A stretch of 64,000 bases of DNA, from positions 1,116,001-1,180,000 of the forward strand of contig NZ_JAATJT010000001.1 of NCBI RefSeq assembly GCF_011777505.1. Reading direction: 5' to 3'. Shown here one piece after another: positions 28,409 through 38,943 of the stretch (its first letter is position 1; every line of letters begins with the position of its first letter). The position numbers and the translations under genes were made by a program. The notes below the pieces were generated by a model that was given only the letters and a program-made list of their open reading frames with translations, did no database searches and was not told the DNA's origin. Source of the DNA: Gaetbulibacter sp. S0825 (lineage in GTDB: Bacteria > Bacteroidota > Bacteroidia > Flavobacteriales > Flavobacteriaceae).

Positions 28409-29488
28409 ATGAAGAAAGTAGATTACATTGTAGTTGGCTCAGGTCTTGCAGGCATTATGTTCTGTGATGTGCTCATGCAGCATAATAAAACATTTATCGT
28501 CATTGATGATGACTCTCAAAAATCATCAATTGTTGCAGGAGGATTATATAATCCAGTGGTTTTAAAACGATTTACACCAGTTTGGAAATCTAAAGAGCAA
28601 TTAAAGTTAGCCTTACCAAGGTATAAAGCTTTAGAAAAAAACCTTAAAGTACAATTAGATTATAAAGTTCCAGTATATAGATTATTTGCATCCATTGAAG
28701 AACAGAATAACTGGTTTTTGGCAAGTGATAAAGTAGGATTGTCAGATTATATTAAACCAGAAATCCACCAAATAGAGAATAGGTTCATTAAAAGTGATTA
28801 TGGTTTTGGGAAAGTACTTCATACAGGACGAATAGATACTAATACACTAATTGATGCTTTTAAAAACGAGTTGAGAAATAACAATCAATTAGTCGAAACG
28901 TCTTTCGATTATGATGCAATTCAATTCAATGAAAGTGATGTCGCTTATAAAAATATTGAAGCGCAACATATTGTATTCGCTGAAGGATTCGGATTGAAAC
29001 AAAATCCATTTTTTAATCATTTACCACTAAAAGGCACCAAAGGAGAGTTGCTAACAATTTACGCTCCCAACCTTAATATTGATTTTGTATTAAAATCTGG
29101 AGCATTTTTAATTCCCTTGGGAGAAGACAACTATATTGTTGGTGCTACTTATGAGTGGCATGACAAATCAAACAAGACAACAGCAGCTGCAAAAACAGAG
29201 TTGTTAGATAAGCTTAAAACATTTATTAACTGCGATTTTAAAGTTGTAGACCAAGTAGCAGGAATGCGACCAACAGTTATAGATAGAAGGCCACTGATTG
29301 GGCAACATAAAAAATATAAGCAGCTTTATCTGTTAAATGGTTTAGGAACCAGAGGCGTCATGATTGCGCCTTATGTAGCAAAGAAACTGTTTGACTTTAT
29401 TGAAAATAGTGTTGAAATTGATTCCGAAATAAACATTACAAGGTTTAGTAACTATTTTCCTTGGAAAGTTGTTTGTCGTAATGCATAA
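28409..29488 (+). CDS. FAD-dependent oxidoreductase (DadA/glycine oxidase type)
   Basis: This 359-residue flavoprotein has an N-terminal dinucleotide-binding motif YIVVGSGLAGIMFCD (about 5-19) followed by an acidic residue pair (IDDDS), and a C-terminal FAD-binding segment (GMRPTVIDRRPLIG and LLNGLGTRGVMIAP). It is of the DAO superfamily, which oxidises amino acids or amines; the substrate is unknown. The start is ATG at 28409 in agreement with homologues. It frequently follows gldN in flavobacteria. The 3' end overlaps the convergent DUF983 gene by 44 bases. Confidence 0.9.
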   Translation: MKKVDYIVVGSGLAGIMFCDVLMQHNKTFIVIDDDSQKSSIVAGGLYNPVVLKRFTPVWKSKEQLKLALPRYKALEKNLKVQLDYKVPVYRLFASIEEQNNWFLASDKVGLSDYIKPEIHQIENRFIKSDYGFGKVLHTGRIDTNTLIDAFKNELRNNNQLVETSFDYDAIQFNESDVAYKNIEAQHIVFAEGFGLKQNPFFNHLPLKGTKGELLTIYAPNLNIDFVLKSGAFLIPLGEDNYIVGATYEWHDKSNKTTAAAKTELLDKLKTFINCDFKVVDQVAGMRPTVIDRRPLIGQHKKYKQLYLLNGLGTRGVMIAPYVAKKLFDFIENSVEIDSEINITRFSNYFPWKVVCRNA

Positions 29489-32900: not shown

Positions 32901-32911
32901 TAATTTTATGC

Positions 32912-32941
32912 TTGTTAAAATAGAAAAGGGTTGTATATTTG
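32912..32941 (+). promoter_or_regulatory. Promoter for the initiator tRNA gene
   Basis: TTG, a 19-base spacer and TATATTTG give an ideal fit to the Bacteroidota housekeeping consensus, 71 bases upstream of the mature tRNA 5' end. Confidence 0.8.
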
Positions 32942-33012
32942 CAGTCCAAAATGATTGAGTCGGTATTATGAGCCGAAAGTTAAAAGCTAAGACAATTGTT
33001 TTGAAATTATAT

Positions 33013-33085
<73 letters not shown>

Positions 33086-33088
33086 CTA

Positions 33089-33118
33089 GAAAGCCCAGTT
33101 TTACTGGGCTTTTTTTAT
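33089..33118 (+). terminator. Rho-independent terminator of the tRNA-fMet gene
   Basis: A 10-bp stem (AAAGCCCAGT with its complement), a 3-base loop and a T run lie directly after the tRNA. Confidence 0.93.
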
Positions 33119-33175
33119 TTTGTAGCAATATTGTAGTAAAATTGATATTATTTTATGTCAACTTAACAAATAGGC

Positions 33176-34249
33176 TTAATAAAATTCGTTAGTTCTAGTT
33201 AGTTTATATTTTTTATCATCTATTTTTTCTATTTCCATTCGTTCCTTTGTTCTAGTCAGGTATGGAACCCCTTCACTATCAAATTCATATTTTCTACCAG
33301 AATAGTATAATCTATCACTCAAATTAGAATGTATGTATTCTAATAATTCTATATGATTTTGAAAGTTCCAGTTTGATTTGGACTCGATTGGTTCTACTAT
33401 AATTATTTCGCTTACTGTTCTATCTATATTGAATTCCCTACCAGTAAAGAAGTCATGACCCAAAGTGATTTCCTCAACCAAATTTCTATCATAAAATGCA
33501 CGTCTGTTTCCTTTTATCCCTTCATAATCTTTCTCTGGACTTAAACCAGACTTAGAGCGAGGAATACCCATTTGATGTTTGCTAATTAAAAATCTCCATT
33601 CTTGTTCATATTCCCATTTATTTGATTTTACATTTGTTGCATAAAAGAATGGAATAACTGGATTAGGGAAATCACTAAAATCAATAGGATTTAATCTTTT
33701 AGTATAATTGATTGGGAATAGTCCATAACAGCTATCCTCATCTACCTTTTCTTTAATACTTGATTCTAGTTTTTCTGTATTGAATTTTATTTGAAATCCT
33801 TTCTCTTGTGTATAGTGTGGCCACATCAGTTCGTTATTATCGATACCTGTCATTGATATTATTCCAAAAATATTAGATATAGTTTCCCAAAAAGCCAATA
33901 TATATCCATGTGAATAATAGCCCTCTACATTATCTTGTTCATAAAATTTTAAAAGGTCTTCTTCATTTTTATATACTTCACCTAAAAATCTTTTGTAATA
34001 AGAATAATCTATGCGTTCTTTTGAGCCTATGAGGAATACGCTAGAATCTAAACTATCATTTAATTCATACGGATGAGATGCATATAGATAACCTTTTAGA
34101 AGAGCATCGACAGAAAATTTACTTACACTGTAAAATTTATAAATGGAATCGGGTTTCGGAATATTATGAGTTATTTCACAAGTTAACTCACCCTTTTTAG
34201 TTGGTACTTCTGTATAGTTGAAATTATTATAATTGTATGTATGCCCCAT
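33176..34249 (-). CDS. DUF2971 domain protein
   Basis: This 357-residue soluble protein matches DUF2971 by its family landmarks: an N-terminal IYKFYSVSKFSVDALL then PYELND, the central ELMWPHYTQEKGFQIKFN and the later NKWEYEQEWRFLI. The function is not known. These proteins often occur in variable genomic regions. It is the third gene of a minus-strand run after a serine recombinase and a 49-residue ORF, with a 20-base gap to the latter. It lies inside the tRNA-bounded region and has no signal peptide. Confidence 0.8.
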   Translation of the reverse strand: MGHTYNYNNFNYTEVPTKKGELTCEITHNIPKPDSIYKFYSVSKFSVDALLKGYLYASHPYELNDSLDSSVFLIGSKERIDYSYYKRFLGEVYKNEEDLLKFYEQDNVEGYYSHGYILAFWETISNIFGIISMTGIDNNELMWPHYTQEKGFQIKFNTEKLESSIKEKVDEDSCYGLFPINYTKRLNPIDFSDFPNPVIPFFYATNVKSNKWEYEQEWRFLISKHQMGIPRSKSGLSPEKDYEGIKGNRRAFYDRNLVEEITLGHDFFTGREFNIDRTVSEIIIVEPIESKSNWNFQNHIELLEYIHSNLSDRLYYSGRKYEFDSEGVPYLTRTKERMEIEKIDDKKYKLTRTNEFY

Positions 34250-34269
34250 TTTAATTTAGATTTATTGTC

Positions 34270-34419
34270 CTAGTAACGACTCATTTGTTTCAAAAATTGT
34301 TTTACTTGATATTGATTTTTAATTATCTTTTTAGCTTCCGCTGGATTTCCAGCTTCCACAGATACTGAAATAGCCGTTCCAGTTCCGTCAATTCTAATTT
34401 TGCCTTTATATGTTGCCAT
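34270..34419 (-). CDS. 49-residue protein of unknown function between recombinase and DUF2971 gene
   Basis: This short ORF runs from ATG at 34419 to TAG at 34270. The product starts MATYKGKIRIDGTGTAISV, continues into a helical part (EAGNPAEAKKIIKNQYQVKQ) and ends FLKQMSRY; it is basic and soluble, with a beta-strand-then-helix look. It lies 13 bases after the recombinase stop and 20 bases before the DUF2971 start on the same strand, which fits a three-gene operon. I do not recognise the family. It could be a DNA-binding accessory protein or a small antitoxin-like partner, but nothing in the sequence proves this. Confidence 0.6.
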   Translation of the reverse strand: MATYKGKIRIDGTGTAISVSVEAGNPAEAKKIIKNQYQVKQFLKQMSRY

Positions 34420-34432
34420 AATGTTATTTGTT

Positions 34433-35059
34433 TTATGCTGCGTTATTAATCAATCTTCTAATCTTCTGTACAGTTCCGCTAGACTTACCTGTTAACGCCA
34501 TAATATTGCGTACAGATTGCTTTTGCTTAACGAATTTCACTATGTCTGAATGTTCTGCCAAAAGTTGTTTAGCATCCTTTACAGAGCCTTGTTTGCGCCC
34601 TAACTTACCACCATCTTTAATGTATTTTGCTCTCCCACTATCTAATCTCGATTTGATTAATCGAAGTTCTGCCGATGCGAATGTGGATGCTATGCTCAAC
34701 ATGGTTTGAACCATACCGTTTATTTCTCCGTTCTCTAGTAATGTATGTAGCTTGTAGTTGTCGATAATGATGTTAATCCCATTAGCATTACATTTCTCTA
34801 AAAACAATGCAAATGATGATATTTTACGGCTTATACGTGAAATCTCAGATGCAATAATATGCTTAACGTTGTTGGTTATTGCATATTCCAGTATCTCATC
34901 ATTTACCGCATCATTTTTTGTTCCAGATTTATAGTAACTAAACTCTTTAACTATTGTATATGTGCTACTGTAATTTAACCTCAACTCTTGACTTTGGCGT
35001 GTTACATCCTGTTTGCTTTCCGTAGTTGAACATCGACAGATTAGTATTGCTTTTTCCAT
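34433..35059 (-). CDS. Small serine recombinase (resolvase family)
   Basis: This 208-residue protein has the resolvase/invertase catalytic domain: ILICRCSTTESKQDVTRQSQ with the nucleophile Ser11 next to Arg9, SEISRISRK (71-79) corresponding to the DRLSR active-site motif, and the long E helix around MVQTMLSIASTFASAEL. A short C-terminal helix-turn-helix follows GRKQGS. The size is that of resolvases and invertases rather than large serine integrases. It would catalyse inversion or deletion between short sites. It heads the three-gene minus-strand operon and is divergent from the DUF4238 gene. Confidence 0.9.
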   Translation of the reverse strand: MEKAILICRCSTTESKQDVTRQSQELRLNYSSTYTIVKEFSYYKSGTKNDAVNDEILEYAITNNVKHIIASEISRISRKISSFALFLEKCNANGINIIIDNYKLHTLLENGEINGMVQTMLSIASTFASAELRLIKSRLDSGRAKYIKDGGKLGRKQGSVKDAKQLLAEHSDIVKFVKQKQSVRNIMALTGKSSGTVQKIRRLINNAA

Positions 35060-35133
35060 ACATAAATATACAAAATATAATTCTATATATAAAAAAAATC
35101 TATCACTAATATTGTTATAATCAATAATATCTA

Positions 35134-35153
35134 TATATTTATAATTAAATATA
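35134..35153. repeat. A/T-only inverted repeat between the recombinase and DUF4238 genes
   Basis: TATATTTA and TAAATATA are separated by 4 bases, in the 154-base divergent region. It may be a recombinase site or operator. In so A/T-rich a stretch, an 8-bp palindrome can arise by chance. Confidence 0.25.
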
Positions 35154-35213
35154 GTATTTCATGATTTTATTGTATTAAAAAATTAGCTTTAAGCAAACTT
35201 AACTCGATTAATA

Positions 35214-36299
35214 TTGAATAATACGATTAAAAAAAATCAGCATTTTGTTCCCCAATTTTATTTGAAGTATTTCTCGCTATATAATGAAAAAACTAGTATT
35301 GGGCTTTACAATATCCCAAGTGCTAAATTCATTCCTTCTGCTCCAATAAAATCACAATCCGCTCAGAAATTTTTTTATGGGAAAGACGGGAAAGTGGAAG
35401 AATGGTTATCTGATGTAGAAAACAACATGGCACCAATATTTTCTAATATTATAAGTAACCAAAAGCTACCTGAATGGTCGTCAGCAATTCATTTAAAACT
35501 AATCCATTTTCTGATTGTTTTAGATTTAAGAAATCCAGTTCATAAAAATGAGATAGAAAAAGGATTTGAGCTATTTAAAGAGAAACTTAACAGGCACAAC
35601 GTAGATAATTCAGATTCGGACATACAAAAAGCATTCGATTCTATTGATAATGACCAATTATTTAATGAAAGTCTTCTTGAAGCGACTAGCAGTATTCCAT
35701 ATTTAATAGATTTAAATTTTAAATTAATTAGAAATACTACATCAATACCTTTTATCATTTCCGACAATCCAATGGTAAATTATAATCAATTTCTGGAACA
35801 TAGAAATTGGAAGCATAGTAGTCATAACGGATATGGAGCAATTGGAAGACAGATATATTTCCCATTAAATCATGAATATCTTATTGCATTTTATGACTCT
35901 GGTATATACAAAATCGGTAATAAAAAAGAGAAAATTGTAACTATTGATTCTGAAAACGAAATTCACCAACTCAACATTTTACAATATTTAAACTGTAATC
36001 AAAATTTATACTTTAATCAATTGGCATCAAGAGATTATATTCAAAACTTGGTTCAAGAGGCAGAAAAATATATCAAAGCCAATAAACCATATTCTAAAGT
36101 TGTTCCAATACTAGATAAATCAACTGGAAATCTCAAAAAGAATGAAGAAATAATAACTATTGGAAGCTCAGATGCAAAAATTAACCTAACTATTGCAAAA
36201 ATCAAAATGCATTCAAAGTCAAAAGGCATAAAATTTGACAATCACGTTGTTCAACTTAGACCAAAAGTAAAACAGCATATAGAGGTTAACGGAAGGTAG
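35214..36299 (+). CDS. DUF4238 domain protein
   Basis: This 361-residue soluble protein opens with KNQHFVPQFYLKYFS, the hallmark of DUF4238, and has the second conserved segment PFIISDNPMVNYN near residue 180 and IYFPLNHEYLIAFYDSG near 220. Function is unknown. The start is TTG at 35214; no ATG occurs before residue 72, beyond the conserved N-terminus. It is divergent from the serine recombinase across an A/T-rich gap, and inside the tRNA-bounded region. Nothing indicates a signal peptide or membrane segment. Confidence 0.8.
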   Translation: MNNTIKKNQHFVPQFYLKYFSLYNEKTSIGLYNIPSAKFIPSAPIKSQSAQKFFYGKDGKVEEWLSDVENNMAPIFSNIISNQKLPEWSSAIHLKLIHFLIVLDLRNPVHKNEIEKGFELFKEKLNRHNVDNSDSDIQKAFDSIDNDQLFNESLLEATSSIPYLIDLNFKLIRNTTSIPFIISDNPMVNYNQFLEHRNWKHSSHNGYGAIGRQIYFPLNHEYLIAFYDSGIYKIGNKKEKIVTIDSENEIHQLNILQYLNCNQNLYFNQLASRDYIQNLVQEAEKYIKANKPYSKVVPILDKSTGNLKKNEEIITIGSSDAKINLTIAKIKMHSKSKGIKFDNHVVQLRPKVKQHIEVNGR

Positions 36300-36376
36300 T
36301 TACAATTAACAGGCTCATTAAATATTTTCTGTACCGATAAAGTAGCAAAATATATCAAAGAATTAATGTGATACGA

Positions 36377-36425
36377 AAAAGTGTATCATTAACTAACCCC
36401 TATGGATTAAAAATGATACACTTTT
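36377..36425. repeat. 14-bp perfect inverted repeat in the island
   Basis: AAAAGTGTATCATT (36377-36390) and its exact complement (36412-36425) are separated by 21 bases. The pentamer GATAC or its complement occurs four times between 36369 and 36436. There is no T run directly after the arms, so a terminator is less likely than a protein or recombinase binding site. It sits in the gap after the DUF4238 gene. Confidence 0.6.
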
Positions 36426-36466
36426 AGAATTGATACAATTATTACATATTAGAATATAAATCGTGT

Positions 36467-36495
36467 AGAAAAAAGGCGAGTTTAAAACCCGCCTT
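36467..36495 (-). terminator. Terminator downstream of the acidic lipoprotein gene
   Basis: Arms AAGGCGAGTTT and AAACCCGCCTT pair with one mismatch; on the minus strand they are followed by a run of T. It is 33 bases past the lipoprotein stop. Confidence 0.8.
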
Positions 36496-36527
36496 ATATT
36501 ATATCAACTAAAAATATATGATTTACC

Positions 36528-37292
36528 TTAATCTTCTAGTAAGTTGATATATTCTTTTATTTTCTGTTTAATAGCTCCAGCTAACTCAGTATTTCCATCT
36601 GGGTCTTCTGGGCTAATCTCAATAGTTCCATCCATATTCCCATCGTTAGCAATGGATAAATCTACGCCATTTGTACTATCCAGTATCATTCCAAGGTCAA
36701 AATCAATTACAATACCTTCGGATGCCTGAGAGATAGCAATGTCAAACTGTGTGTCTTCAAAATCAACTTCCACTTCTTCTTCAAAATAATGCCAGAAAAT
36801 AAATGGAGTGCCATCAATGGTACCCTCAATTAAAACGGATTTACCAAATAAATCACTTGTAGGGTCAGTGCTTACATCAAATTCAAATTCTAGTTCTTCG
36901 TAAACACCCATAGGAACTTCAACATTTAAAAAGCTAATTTGTCCAGACATTAAATCTAATTCAAATGGACCCATAAGCTCTATTTCATCTTGAGAATCAA
37001 AATAACCGTCATCGTCCCATTGGTCGTTTTGGTCATCTTCATAATCATCATCTTCTAAATCCAACTCTAATTCAAATTCACTAATATTCATCATGAAATT
37101 GTTAATGACAATTTCGCTGTTCATTCCTTTGGAGGATGAACTGGTTCTTTGGGTTGTTAAATTGGTATAAGTTCCTTTGGCACTAATGTTTAATAAACCA
37201 TTATCATTTAGTGTTTCATCGTCTGAACAACTAAAGAAAAGGGTAATTGTAAAAAATAAGGCTATAACATTCCTTAAATAAATAGGTTTCAT
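36528..37292 (-). CDS. Acidic lipoprotein of unknown function
   Basis: This 254-residue lipoprotein has lipobox FFSC with Cys22. Its most striking part is residues 78-105, made almost wholly of Asp, Glu, Asn, Gln and aromatic residues (EDDDYEDDQNDQWDDDG), which could bind Ca2+ or other divalent metals. The rest looks beta-rich (GLLNISAKGTYTNL, VEVPMGVYEELEFEFDV) and somewhat like DUF4382 proteins, but I would not assign that family. It is a single-gene unit with its own terminator, between the DUF4238 gene and the tRNA-like fragment. Confidence 0.7.
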   Translation of the reverse strand: MKPIYLRNVIALFFTITLFFSCSDDETLNDNGLLNISAKGTYTNLTTQRTSSSSKGMNSEIVINNFMMNISEFELELDLEDDDYEDDQNDQWDDDGYFDSQDEIELMGPFELDLMSGQISFLNVEVPMGVYEELEFEFDVSTDPTSDLFGKSVLIEGTIDGTPFIFWHYFEEEVEVDFEDTQFDIAISQASEGIVIDFDLGMILDSTNGVDLSIANDGNMDGTIEISPEDPDGNTELAGAIKQKIKEYINLLED

Positions 37293-37540
37293 AAGTTTTG
37301 GGTTTTAATTATTAATAAGTTAAACGTTTGTTTATACTAATATTATTACCCTATAGTGAGTAATAATAGTTGTACTTTTCATATATAACAACTGAAATTT
37401 AAAAACTCCTACCTAATTTGTTGCTTTTTTATTTTTTTAAGCTAAAAAATGTGGTGATACGAAATACTTCTAATTATTATTCATATTCTTGTTTAAATTC
37501 AACAATAGATAAGAAATCTTTGATAAGTTGGTTAGATAAT

Positions 37541-37559
37541 TCAAGTCTTCCCGCTACTA
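37541..37559 (+). repeat. tRNA-fMet 3'-end fragment (candidate att site, right copy)
   Basis: The 12 bases TTCCCGCTACTA at 37548-37559 are identical to the tRNA-fMet 3' end at 33077-33088. The seven bases before them, TCAAGTC, resemble the tRNA T loop (TCGAGTC) with one change and three bases missing in between. No 5' part of a tRNA is present, so it is not a functional gene. It lies in a 444-base gene-free stretch (37293-37736) that otherwise holds a terminator and a promoter element. Confidence 0.6.
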
Positions 37560-37560
37560 C

Positions 37561-37590
37561 AAACCAGATACGAAAGTATCTGGTTTTTTT
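37561..37590 (+). terminator. Strong hairpin terminator after the tRNA fragment
   Basis: An 11-bp perfect stem (AAACCAGATAC with its complement), GAAA loop and T run follow the fragment by one base. No open gene precedes it on this strand, so it looks like the orphaned terminator of a lost tRNA copy. Confidence 0.9.
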
Positions 37591-38265: not shown

Positions 38266-38943
38266 ATGAAAATATCTAATTTATTAAAAAGAATATATGC
38301 AAAATTGAATGACAATAGCCTTAAAGATGCTTCATTTGATTTTGTAACATTCTTGTATGACTACTATTTCGACTTTATATATGGAATTGATACTGTTTCA
38401 TGGTTTTCTATTGCCGAATTAGCTAAGGAAAATAAGGTAGCTGAACATGCTGTATTGTACCAAGCGACTAAAGTTCTACCATTAAAAACACTTTTTAAAA
38501 AATTAAATTTAAAAGAGGATCAAGTTTTTATTGATATTGGTTCAGGAAAGGGAAGAGTTCTTTTGTTGGCATCAGAACTTGGCTTTAAGGAAGTAAGGGG
38601 AATTGAGTTTTCCTCAACCTTATGCTCTATTTCTGAAAAAAATATCAAAAAATACAAGAAGAAAGTTAATACAAAGTCTAACTTTGAGATTATAAATTTG
38701 GATGCATCTCAATATCAATATAAAGATAACGAGACTGTGTTTTTCATGTATAATCCTTTTGACGAGTTTATTTTAGAAAAAGTATTAAAAAATATTACTG
38801 TTTCTATAGAAAATAATAAAAGAGAAGTACTAATAATTTATGTGAATCCAGTTCATAGACATTTTTTAGAAAAGACTATTAAACCGCGAAAAGTAACTAG
38901 TTATAATATTTGGAACGTAGAAATAGTTGTTTACAATATTTAA
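38266..38943 (+). CDS. Class I SAM-dependent methyltransferase
   Basis: This 225-residue protein has the SAM-binding motif VFIDIGSGKGRVLLLASEL (about 87-105), a following acidic strand end (GIEFSS), and FFMYNPFDE as the motif IV region. The overall pattern is like class I methyltransferases of the DOT1-like or generic type; the substrate is unknown. It sits between the HYC_CC_PP gene and the CusA gene, 18 bases before the latter, so it is probably co-transcribed with the efflux operon. It has no signal peptide and is expected in the cytoplasm. Confidence 0.85.
   Translation: MKISNLLKRIYAKLNDNSLKDASFDFVTFLYDYYFDFIYGIDTVSWFSIAELAKENKVAEHAVLYQATKVLPLKTLFKKLNLKEDQVFIDIGSGKGRVLLLASELGFKEVRGIEFSSTLCSISEKNIKKYKKKVNTKSNFEIINLDASQYQYKDNETVFFMYNPFDEFILEKVLKNITVSIENNKREVLIIYVNPVHRHFLEKTIKPRKVTSYNIWNVEIVVYNI

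Follow-up and report, generated by a model that had tools for sequence, protein, structure and literature searches.

In the 64-kb stretch of the Gaetbulibacter sp. S0825 genome analyzed here (hereafter the window), a 4.47-kb segment lies at the 3' end of a tRNA-fMet gene. We consider it very likely that an integrative element entered here at the tRNA end and has since decayed, and that it is one member of a family whose shared core is made of a small serine recombinase and a res-like site. Judged from their sequences, the family members, which come from Flavobacteriaceae and related Bacteroidota, appear to be small elements that mostly target tRNA genes; this core is constant in them, while the integrase and the cargo vary. 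In the literature that our search covered (outside subscription papers and bioRxiv), no description of this recombinase-site family was recognized; the core and the family around it are what is new here.

The borders of the segment are marked by the 12-mer TTCCCGCTACTA, which is composed of the final 10 nt of the tRNA-fMet gene followed by TA and has an exact second copy 4,471 bp downstream on the same strand. An earlier examination of the window made without database searches (the sequence-only reading) had pointed to this recurring tRNA end, to T-loop-like bases before the second copy and to a second, different strong terminator after it, and all three observations were borne out. The exact 12-mer occurs only twice in the 3.16-Mb genome, at the two segment borders; the right copy is preceded by TTCAAGTC, which resembles the T-loop TTCGAGTC, with a short gap before TTCCCGC; and the strong terminators that the terminator scan placed beyond the two copies differ from each other (Table 1). 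Allowing up to two mismatches, the window holds one match besides the border copies (position 29253), and a reversed 12-mer used as control pattern has no occurrence in the genome. The G+C content of the segment is 29.7%, compared to 32.5% and 33.9% in the two 5-kb flanks. As the right copy is short and the similarity upstream of it gapped, it could be argued that it arose by chance or through an old duplication of the tRNA, the segment then being ordinary variable DNA. However, a first-order Markov model predicts only about 8e-5 occurrences per 5 kb of one strand (0.1 per genome), the left end of the segment is shared with an element in another genus, and T-arm copies exist at the same locus in the nearest relative (see below), which makes this explanation highly improbable.

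Nine related genomes, five from the same genus and four from the same family, were retrieved at the LRR gene that precedes the tRNA, and the order of LRR gene and tRNA is kept in all of them. Homology between the window and each of the five same-genus genomes ends at 33088-33094, that is, at the tRNA end; the nearest relative (G002) is 97% identical to the window up to this point, where homology stops. The tRNA is separated from the HYC_CC_PP/CusA genes by 4.6 kb in the window, by approximately 27 kb in G001, by 68 kb in G003 and, provided that two contigs sharing a 140-bp end are neighbors, by approximately 55 kb in G002. In G004, a multicopper oxidase gene located at 45.7 kb in the window follows around 0.5 kb after the tRNA, and G005 contains just two short matches to the window segment. 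The same gene content between the tRNA and the HYC_CC_PP gene in all relatives, which the sequence-only reading had named as an argument against an insertion, was therefore not observed, as all five same-genus genomes differ after the tRNA. A tyrosine integrase gene lies directly after the tRNA in G002, with two further T-arm copies, the first around 32 kb further along and the second where the next contig begins, and a tyrosine integrase is also found beside the tRNA in G034. These comparisons mark the tRNA-fMet locus as an integration hotspot. Two arrangements at this tRNA were noted separately. G002 carries an apparent tandem array (C32:227000-269780 and C11:1-400; L036, L098, L099, L097), in which a stretch of about 32 kb with a tyrosine integrase is followed by about 9.7 kb in which no integrase was noticed, each ended by a T-arm copy. 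In G151 (L147), the full tRNA is preceded at a distance of 11.8 kb by a 44-bp copy of the tRNA-fMet 5' half and followed by a tyrosine integrase; the stretch between the copy and the full tRNA encodes another tyrosine integrase together with a small serine recombinase of 213 aa (33% identity).

Matches to the window recombinase were present in 51 of 397 genomes of the bacterial family, with a single full-length close match outside the window's own genome, in G333 (84% identity); if a broken fragment in G265 (65%) is disregarded, the next match is at 35%. The G265 fragment (L128/L148) is a relative that aligns over its C-terminal part and carries internal stop codons. G333 belongs to another genus and harbors its recombinase element at the same tRNA-fMet. 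Window positions 32906-33153 are 89% identical to G333 in an alignment that crosses the tRNA and continues into the element, and the first 60 bp beyond the tRNA are almost identical. The G333 element then encodes a 48-aa protein (77%) and the recombinase (84%), followed by an unrelated cargo gene, the inverted-repeat region (73%), a helix-turn-helix (HTH) protein of 224 aa, a 171-aa protein and a tyrosine integrase of 435 aa (PF00589, 1.9e-8); the tRNA end recurs 5.0 kb away as a near-copy. In the right-hand part of the window segment, only the lipoprotein-like gene stands in place of the HTH/Rep-like and integrase genes of G333. No integrase gene was detected in 33089-37559 by Pfam or by tblastn with the G002 and G034 integrases (nothing at E≤1; the G333 integrase was not used as query), and the best candidate for a Rep remnant in the segment reached an E value of only 0.12. 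No mobilization gene was recognized in the G333 element, nor a conjugation gene in the scanned part of the family's proteins. Because the sister element combines the same left end and core with a tyrosine integrase, the integrase of the window element was probably lost. Altogether, the proposal of an element integrated at the tRNA, or its remnant, is well supported by the homology breakpoints in the same genus and by the sister element at the same tRNA.

The family comprises 16 loci: the window, G333 and 14 loci from named genomes (L150-L163), the recombinases of the latter showing 50-82% identity. Their hosts are Flavobacterium, Lutibacter, other Flavobacteriaceae or Flavobacteriales, a Crocinitomicaceae and a Pedobacter. 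A tRNA gene is present in 12 of the 14 named loci versus 5 of 20 control loci of distant serine recombinases (Fisher p 0.0013; locus lengths varied in both sets), and the target tRNAs, as judged by repeats or adjacency, are fMet, Phe, Gln, Leu and a second Met type. Pfam identified a tyrosine integrase in G333, L150, L152, L158, L160, L161 and L163, although for L152, L158 and L160 the class was assigned via a SAM-like domain, with PF00589 below cut-off or absent; L151 (PF00589 below cut-off) and L157 (no Pfam match) were added by similarity to the others. Large serine integrases were identified by Pfam in L153, L155, L156 and L159, pieces of a broken one are found in L154, and L162 is ended by the contig end. 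Exact repeats of at least 12 bp reaching the tRNA end occur in 7 of 14 loci, including the window. When 14 loci were searched with the last 16 nt of the tRNA, one distal near-copy appeared in all seven tyrosine-integrase loci with a tRNA (G333, L151, L152, L157, L158, L160, L161), and none in the five large-serine loci (L153-L156, L159), the truncated L162 or the window, whose gapped right copy was missed by this gapless search at up to three mismatches. As an aside, the four intact large serine integrase genes all run antisense into the target tRNA and end there, sharing 42-48 bp with its 3' part, and L155 carries a second copy of the integrase C-terminus at its far end.

The second constant part of the core is a stretch of approximately 105 bp upstream of the recombinase gene, common to 13 of the 14 named loci and carrying repeated TGATAC/GTATCA motifs. 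As the 13 sequences were chosen by the letters AATCAA, their position is partly given by construction. A profile built from these 13 loci, with the window unused, gave a single match in the 64 kb at E≤10 (6e-13; Table 1) and found the two other unused loci, G333 (3e-20) and L158 (2e-11). Each of the 16 loci contains one strong site in the same orientation relative to the gene, and eight weaker rows all overlap the strong site on the opposite strand. With a model from all 16 loci, matches at E≤0.001 were found in 7 of the 397 genomes: strong ones in the window's genome (a single one), G333, G296 and G075, and weak ones (E above 1e-4) in three more. Of these, the site copies in G296 (L192) and G075 (L193) lie in retrieved stretches in which tblastn detected no recombinase, the stretch of G075 being ended by the contig end. 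The 14-bp inverted repeat listed by the sequence-only reading does exist (36377-36390 and 36412-36425), but it is not a stand-alone feature, forming instead the middle of the conserved site. For the same reason, and given its absence from the terminator scan, we rejected it as a plain terminator. In plasmids and phages, the L155 site had no match, while the recombinase matched 50 plasmid records, all below 60% identity (31-35% among the matches listed), and one phage record (30%).

The residues R9, S11, R75 and R78, which we take to have catalytic roles in the small serine recombinase, are invariant in all 16 loci, and we read the ~105-bp stretch as the res site at which this enzyme would catalyze resolution. 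That such a recombinase has a single compound site next to it is more in keeping with a resolvase than with an invertase. An invertase flipping a promoter or a cargo segment might be suggested by the best named models, which are DNA invertases (PHROG 125, 4e-15; Mpi family, 1.7e-10, far below cut-off), and by the position of the cargo, which in the window, G333 and L158 separates the recombinase gene from its site and in the other 13 loci is found beyond the site. Yet the only additional site rows are those overlapping the strong one, and the two inverted crossover sites of an invertible segment are absent, the window holding one site and its genome one strong match, so that we consider such a function unlikely. 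Even less probable is that the small recombinase itself serves as the integrase for the tRNA-fMet end, the unusual role that the sequence-only reading had weighed against integrase loss. The window element contains no other recombinase, and the relative closest to it is located at the same tRNA; however, recombinases sharing 74-91% identity with each other occur at tRNA genes for Phe, Gln, Leu and Met, accompanied by separate integrases of the tyrosine or large serine class, and the site common to these recombinases is inside the element, away from the tRNA and unlike the tRNA ends. These relatives favor the loss of a separate integrase.

The class of this integrase does not seem to follow the recombinase lineage. 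On the recombinase tree, the large-serine label requires 4 changes, a value no higher than which was reached in 236 of 500 shuffles (mean 4.4), and the tyrosine label 6 (shuffled mean 5.5), and it is because these values are near the shuffled means that we suggest independence; as only 3 of the 13 inner branches are well supported, the evidence for mixing is suggestive. L156, which is from Flavobacterium daemonense, and L152 encode recombinases that are 91% identical, with integrases of different classes. Tentatively, the recombinase/res core might act as a joint for module exchange, whereby two elements arranged one after the other at a tRNA, or brought together in a single cell, would recombine at their res sites into hybrids with a new integrase and new defense cargo. 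If true, this would account for the occurrence of nearly the same core at several tRNAs alongside integrases of both classes, tyrosine and large serine, and for the fact that the window copy and G333 match at the left end, the recombinase and the site but not beyond the site, where the window copy lacks its integrase.

An HTH protein with HxH and YxxK motifs, resembling HUH-type Rep proteins, is encoded in 13 of the 16 loci (not in the window, L150 and L163) and falls into three types, named after L155 (n=8), G333 (n=3) and L160 (n=2). The L155 type was modeled with a pLDDT of 86; among solved structures, the top match of the model is to a viral Rep endonuclease domain, which alone reaches E≤0.001 (8e-4), and ranks 2-9 are mostly Rep domains as well. 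The L160 type was assigned by its motifs, and none of these proteins is named by Pfam, PHROGs or NCBIfam. A role in replication is therefore predicted. HUH proteins also include relaxases, and the element could instead be mobilized by conjugation or a phage, with the HUH protein as relaxase and the recombinase serving another step. Given that viral Rep domains dominate the structural matches and that the few proteins scanned matched neither a relaxase nor a packaging family, we regard this as rather doubtful, and a replication protein as the better assignment.

From the protein families present, we propose that a separate integrase, tyrosine or large serine, would insert and excise the element at the tRNA, that the Rep-like protein would copy the excised circle, that the small recombinase would resolve multimers or tandem copies at res, and that the cargo would protect the host. 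The window copy would have kept the end repeats, recombinase, site and cargo; with integrase and Rep absent, it would therefore be mobile only with an integrase supplied in trans. Several points weigh against this picture. The right repeat of the window is short and its T-arm similarity gapped, and the left end and core could represent an old insertion with the right end stemming from another event. The alignment with related genomes proposed by the sequence-only reading revealed the differing content after the tRNA, but an empty site, with the tRNA directly beside HYC_CC_PP, was not found among them, and an excised circle was not seen. L150 and L163 lack a tRNA in the retrieved sequence, and the family numbers just 16 loci. 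The Rep fold is backed for one of three types, the G333 type having given a poor model and no useful structural match, and the action of the recombinase on the ~105-bp site is deduced from sequence.

Table 1. Features at the tRNA-fMet locus, in window coordinates.
Feature	Position	Strand	Evidence
tRNA-fMet (anticodon CAT), attachment gene	33013..33086	+	ARAGORN
Left tRNA-end repeat, attL-like	33077..33088	+	Exact 12-mer, twice in genome
Left end of element, including terminator 33088-33114	33088..33153	+	Terminator scan; near-identical in G333, absent from G002
DUF2971 protein, candidate defense gene PDC-S31	33176..34249	-	Pfam 1.4e-7; PADLOC PDC-S31 5e-25
49-aa protein adjoining recombinase	34270..34419	-	77% identity in G333, 51% in L154
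Small serine recombinase, 208 aa	34433..35059	-	PF00239 1.1e-16; 84% in G333, 50-82% in 14 named loci
DUF4238 protein, likely defense cargo	35214..36299	+	PF14022 9e-37; no PADLOC match
Res-like site, including 14-bp inverted repeat	36342..36447	+	Profile from 13 other loci, E 6.1e-13
Acidic lipoprotein-like gene, 254 aa, where G333 has HTH and integrase genes	36528..37292	-	No family match
Right tRNA-end repeat, attR-like	37548..37559	+	Exact 12-mer
Terminator after right repeat	37561..37586	+	Terminator scan

The genes that the sequence-only reading had listed between the repeats were confirmed, with the lipoprotein-like gene lacking a Pfam match (Table 1). The latter also had no PADLOC or PHROG match and no tblastn match in the 15 other loci, the 49-aa protein resembles DpnD/PcfM below cut-off, and a sequence search of the PDB gave no match. 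Beyond the segment, a DOT1-like methyltransferase gene (38266-38943) lies between HYC_CC_PP and CusA; among 60 related genomes it has a strong match only in the window's own genome and weak ones in three more, and in G001 the genes flanking its position are around 120 bp apart.

Hand-chosen cargo proteins were scanned with PADLOC in 15 loci (L155 was left out), of which 10 gave a specific anti-phage match: PDC-S31 for the window DUF2971 protein and L158, PDC-M30B for L162, type I restriction for L151, type IIG restriction for L157, L160 and L161, SIR2-HerA for L153, AbiTii for L156 and PtuA for L163. Matches were generic in L154 (histidine kinase) and L159 (UvrD-type helicase), and the scanned cargo of G333, L150 and L152 had none. 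DUF4238 proteins, present in the window and L161, have no PADLOC match, and strong T7 resistance from a DUF4238 protein is reported in a previous study (PMC9122126). The window element likely carries virus-defense genes.

Small serine resolvases and invertases with res sites include the Tn3/gamma-delta type and Mpi, and the window recombinase is similar to them in its catalytic domain, its size and a compound site with repeated half-site-like motifs beside the gene. As for resolvases, the window recombinase has a PF00239 domain, and one strong compound site near the gene, equally oriented, was found in each of the 16 loci. In contrast to these systems, the window recombinase sits in an integrative element, and its score with the Mpi model is 40.9 bits, the cut-off being 272. 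Integrating rolling-circle plasmids of the pSAM2 type combine an integrase at a tRNA 3' end with a replication protein, as the family seems to do, whereas the family has another kind of HTH-HUH protein, the small serine recombinase with its site, and defense cargo. Typical traits of tRNA islands, namely end repeats at both borders and a difference from relatives, are present, but an integrase gene is absent from the window segment. Cis-mobilizable elements (CIMEs) are described in PMC5704250 as decayed integrative and conjugative (ICE) or integrative and mobilizable elements (IME) that keep attL and attR. The window element resembles them in its flanking tRNA-end repeats, the missing integrase and its accretion site, the att-like ends being kept and the integrase lost; it differs in retaining a recombinase and res-like site, in stemming from a family not known as an ICE or IME, and in that no conjugation genes were found among the scanned proteins of its relatives. 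P4-like and other phage satellites, for which a defense hotspot is described in PMC9122126, likewise are small tRNA-type integrated elements with variable anti-phage cargo near the integrase. No helper is known for the family, however, and neither a satellite, primase, packaging or capsid gene among the proteins scanned nor a recombinase relative among 140 pattern stretches of IMG/VR was recognized.

The recombinase and its ~105-bp site mark a Bacteroidota family of small integrative elements adjoining known and candidate anti-phage genes. This marker permits a search for new defense genes by position, and it opens to testing the idea that small islands without obvious transfer genes exchange cargo and integrases through a resolvase/res pair.

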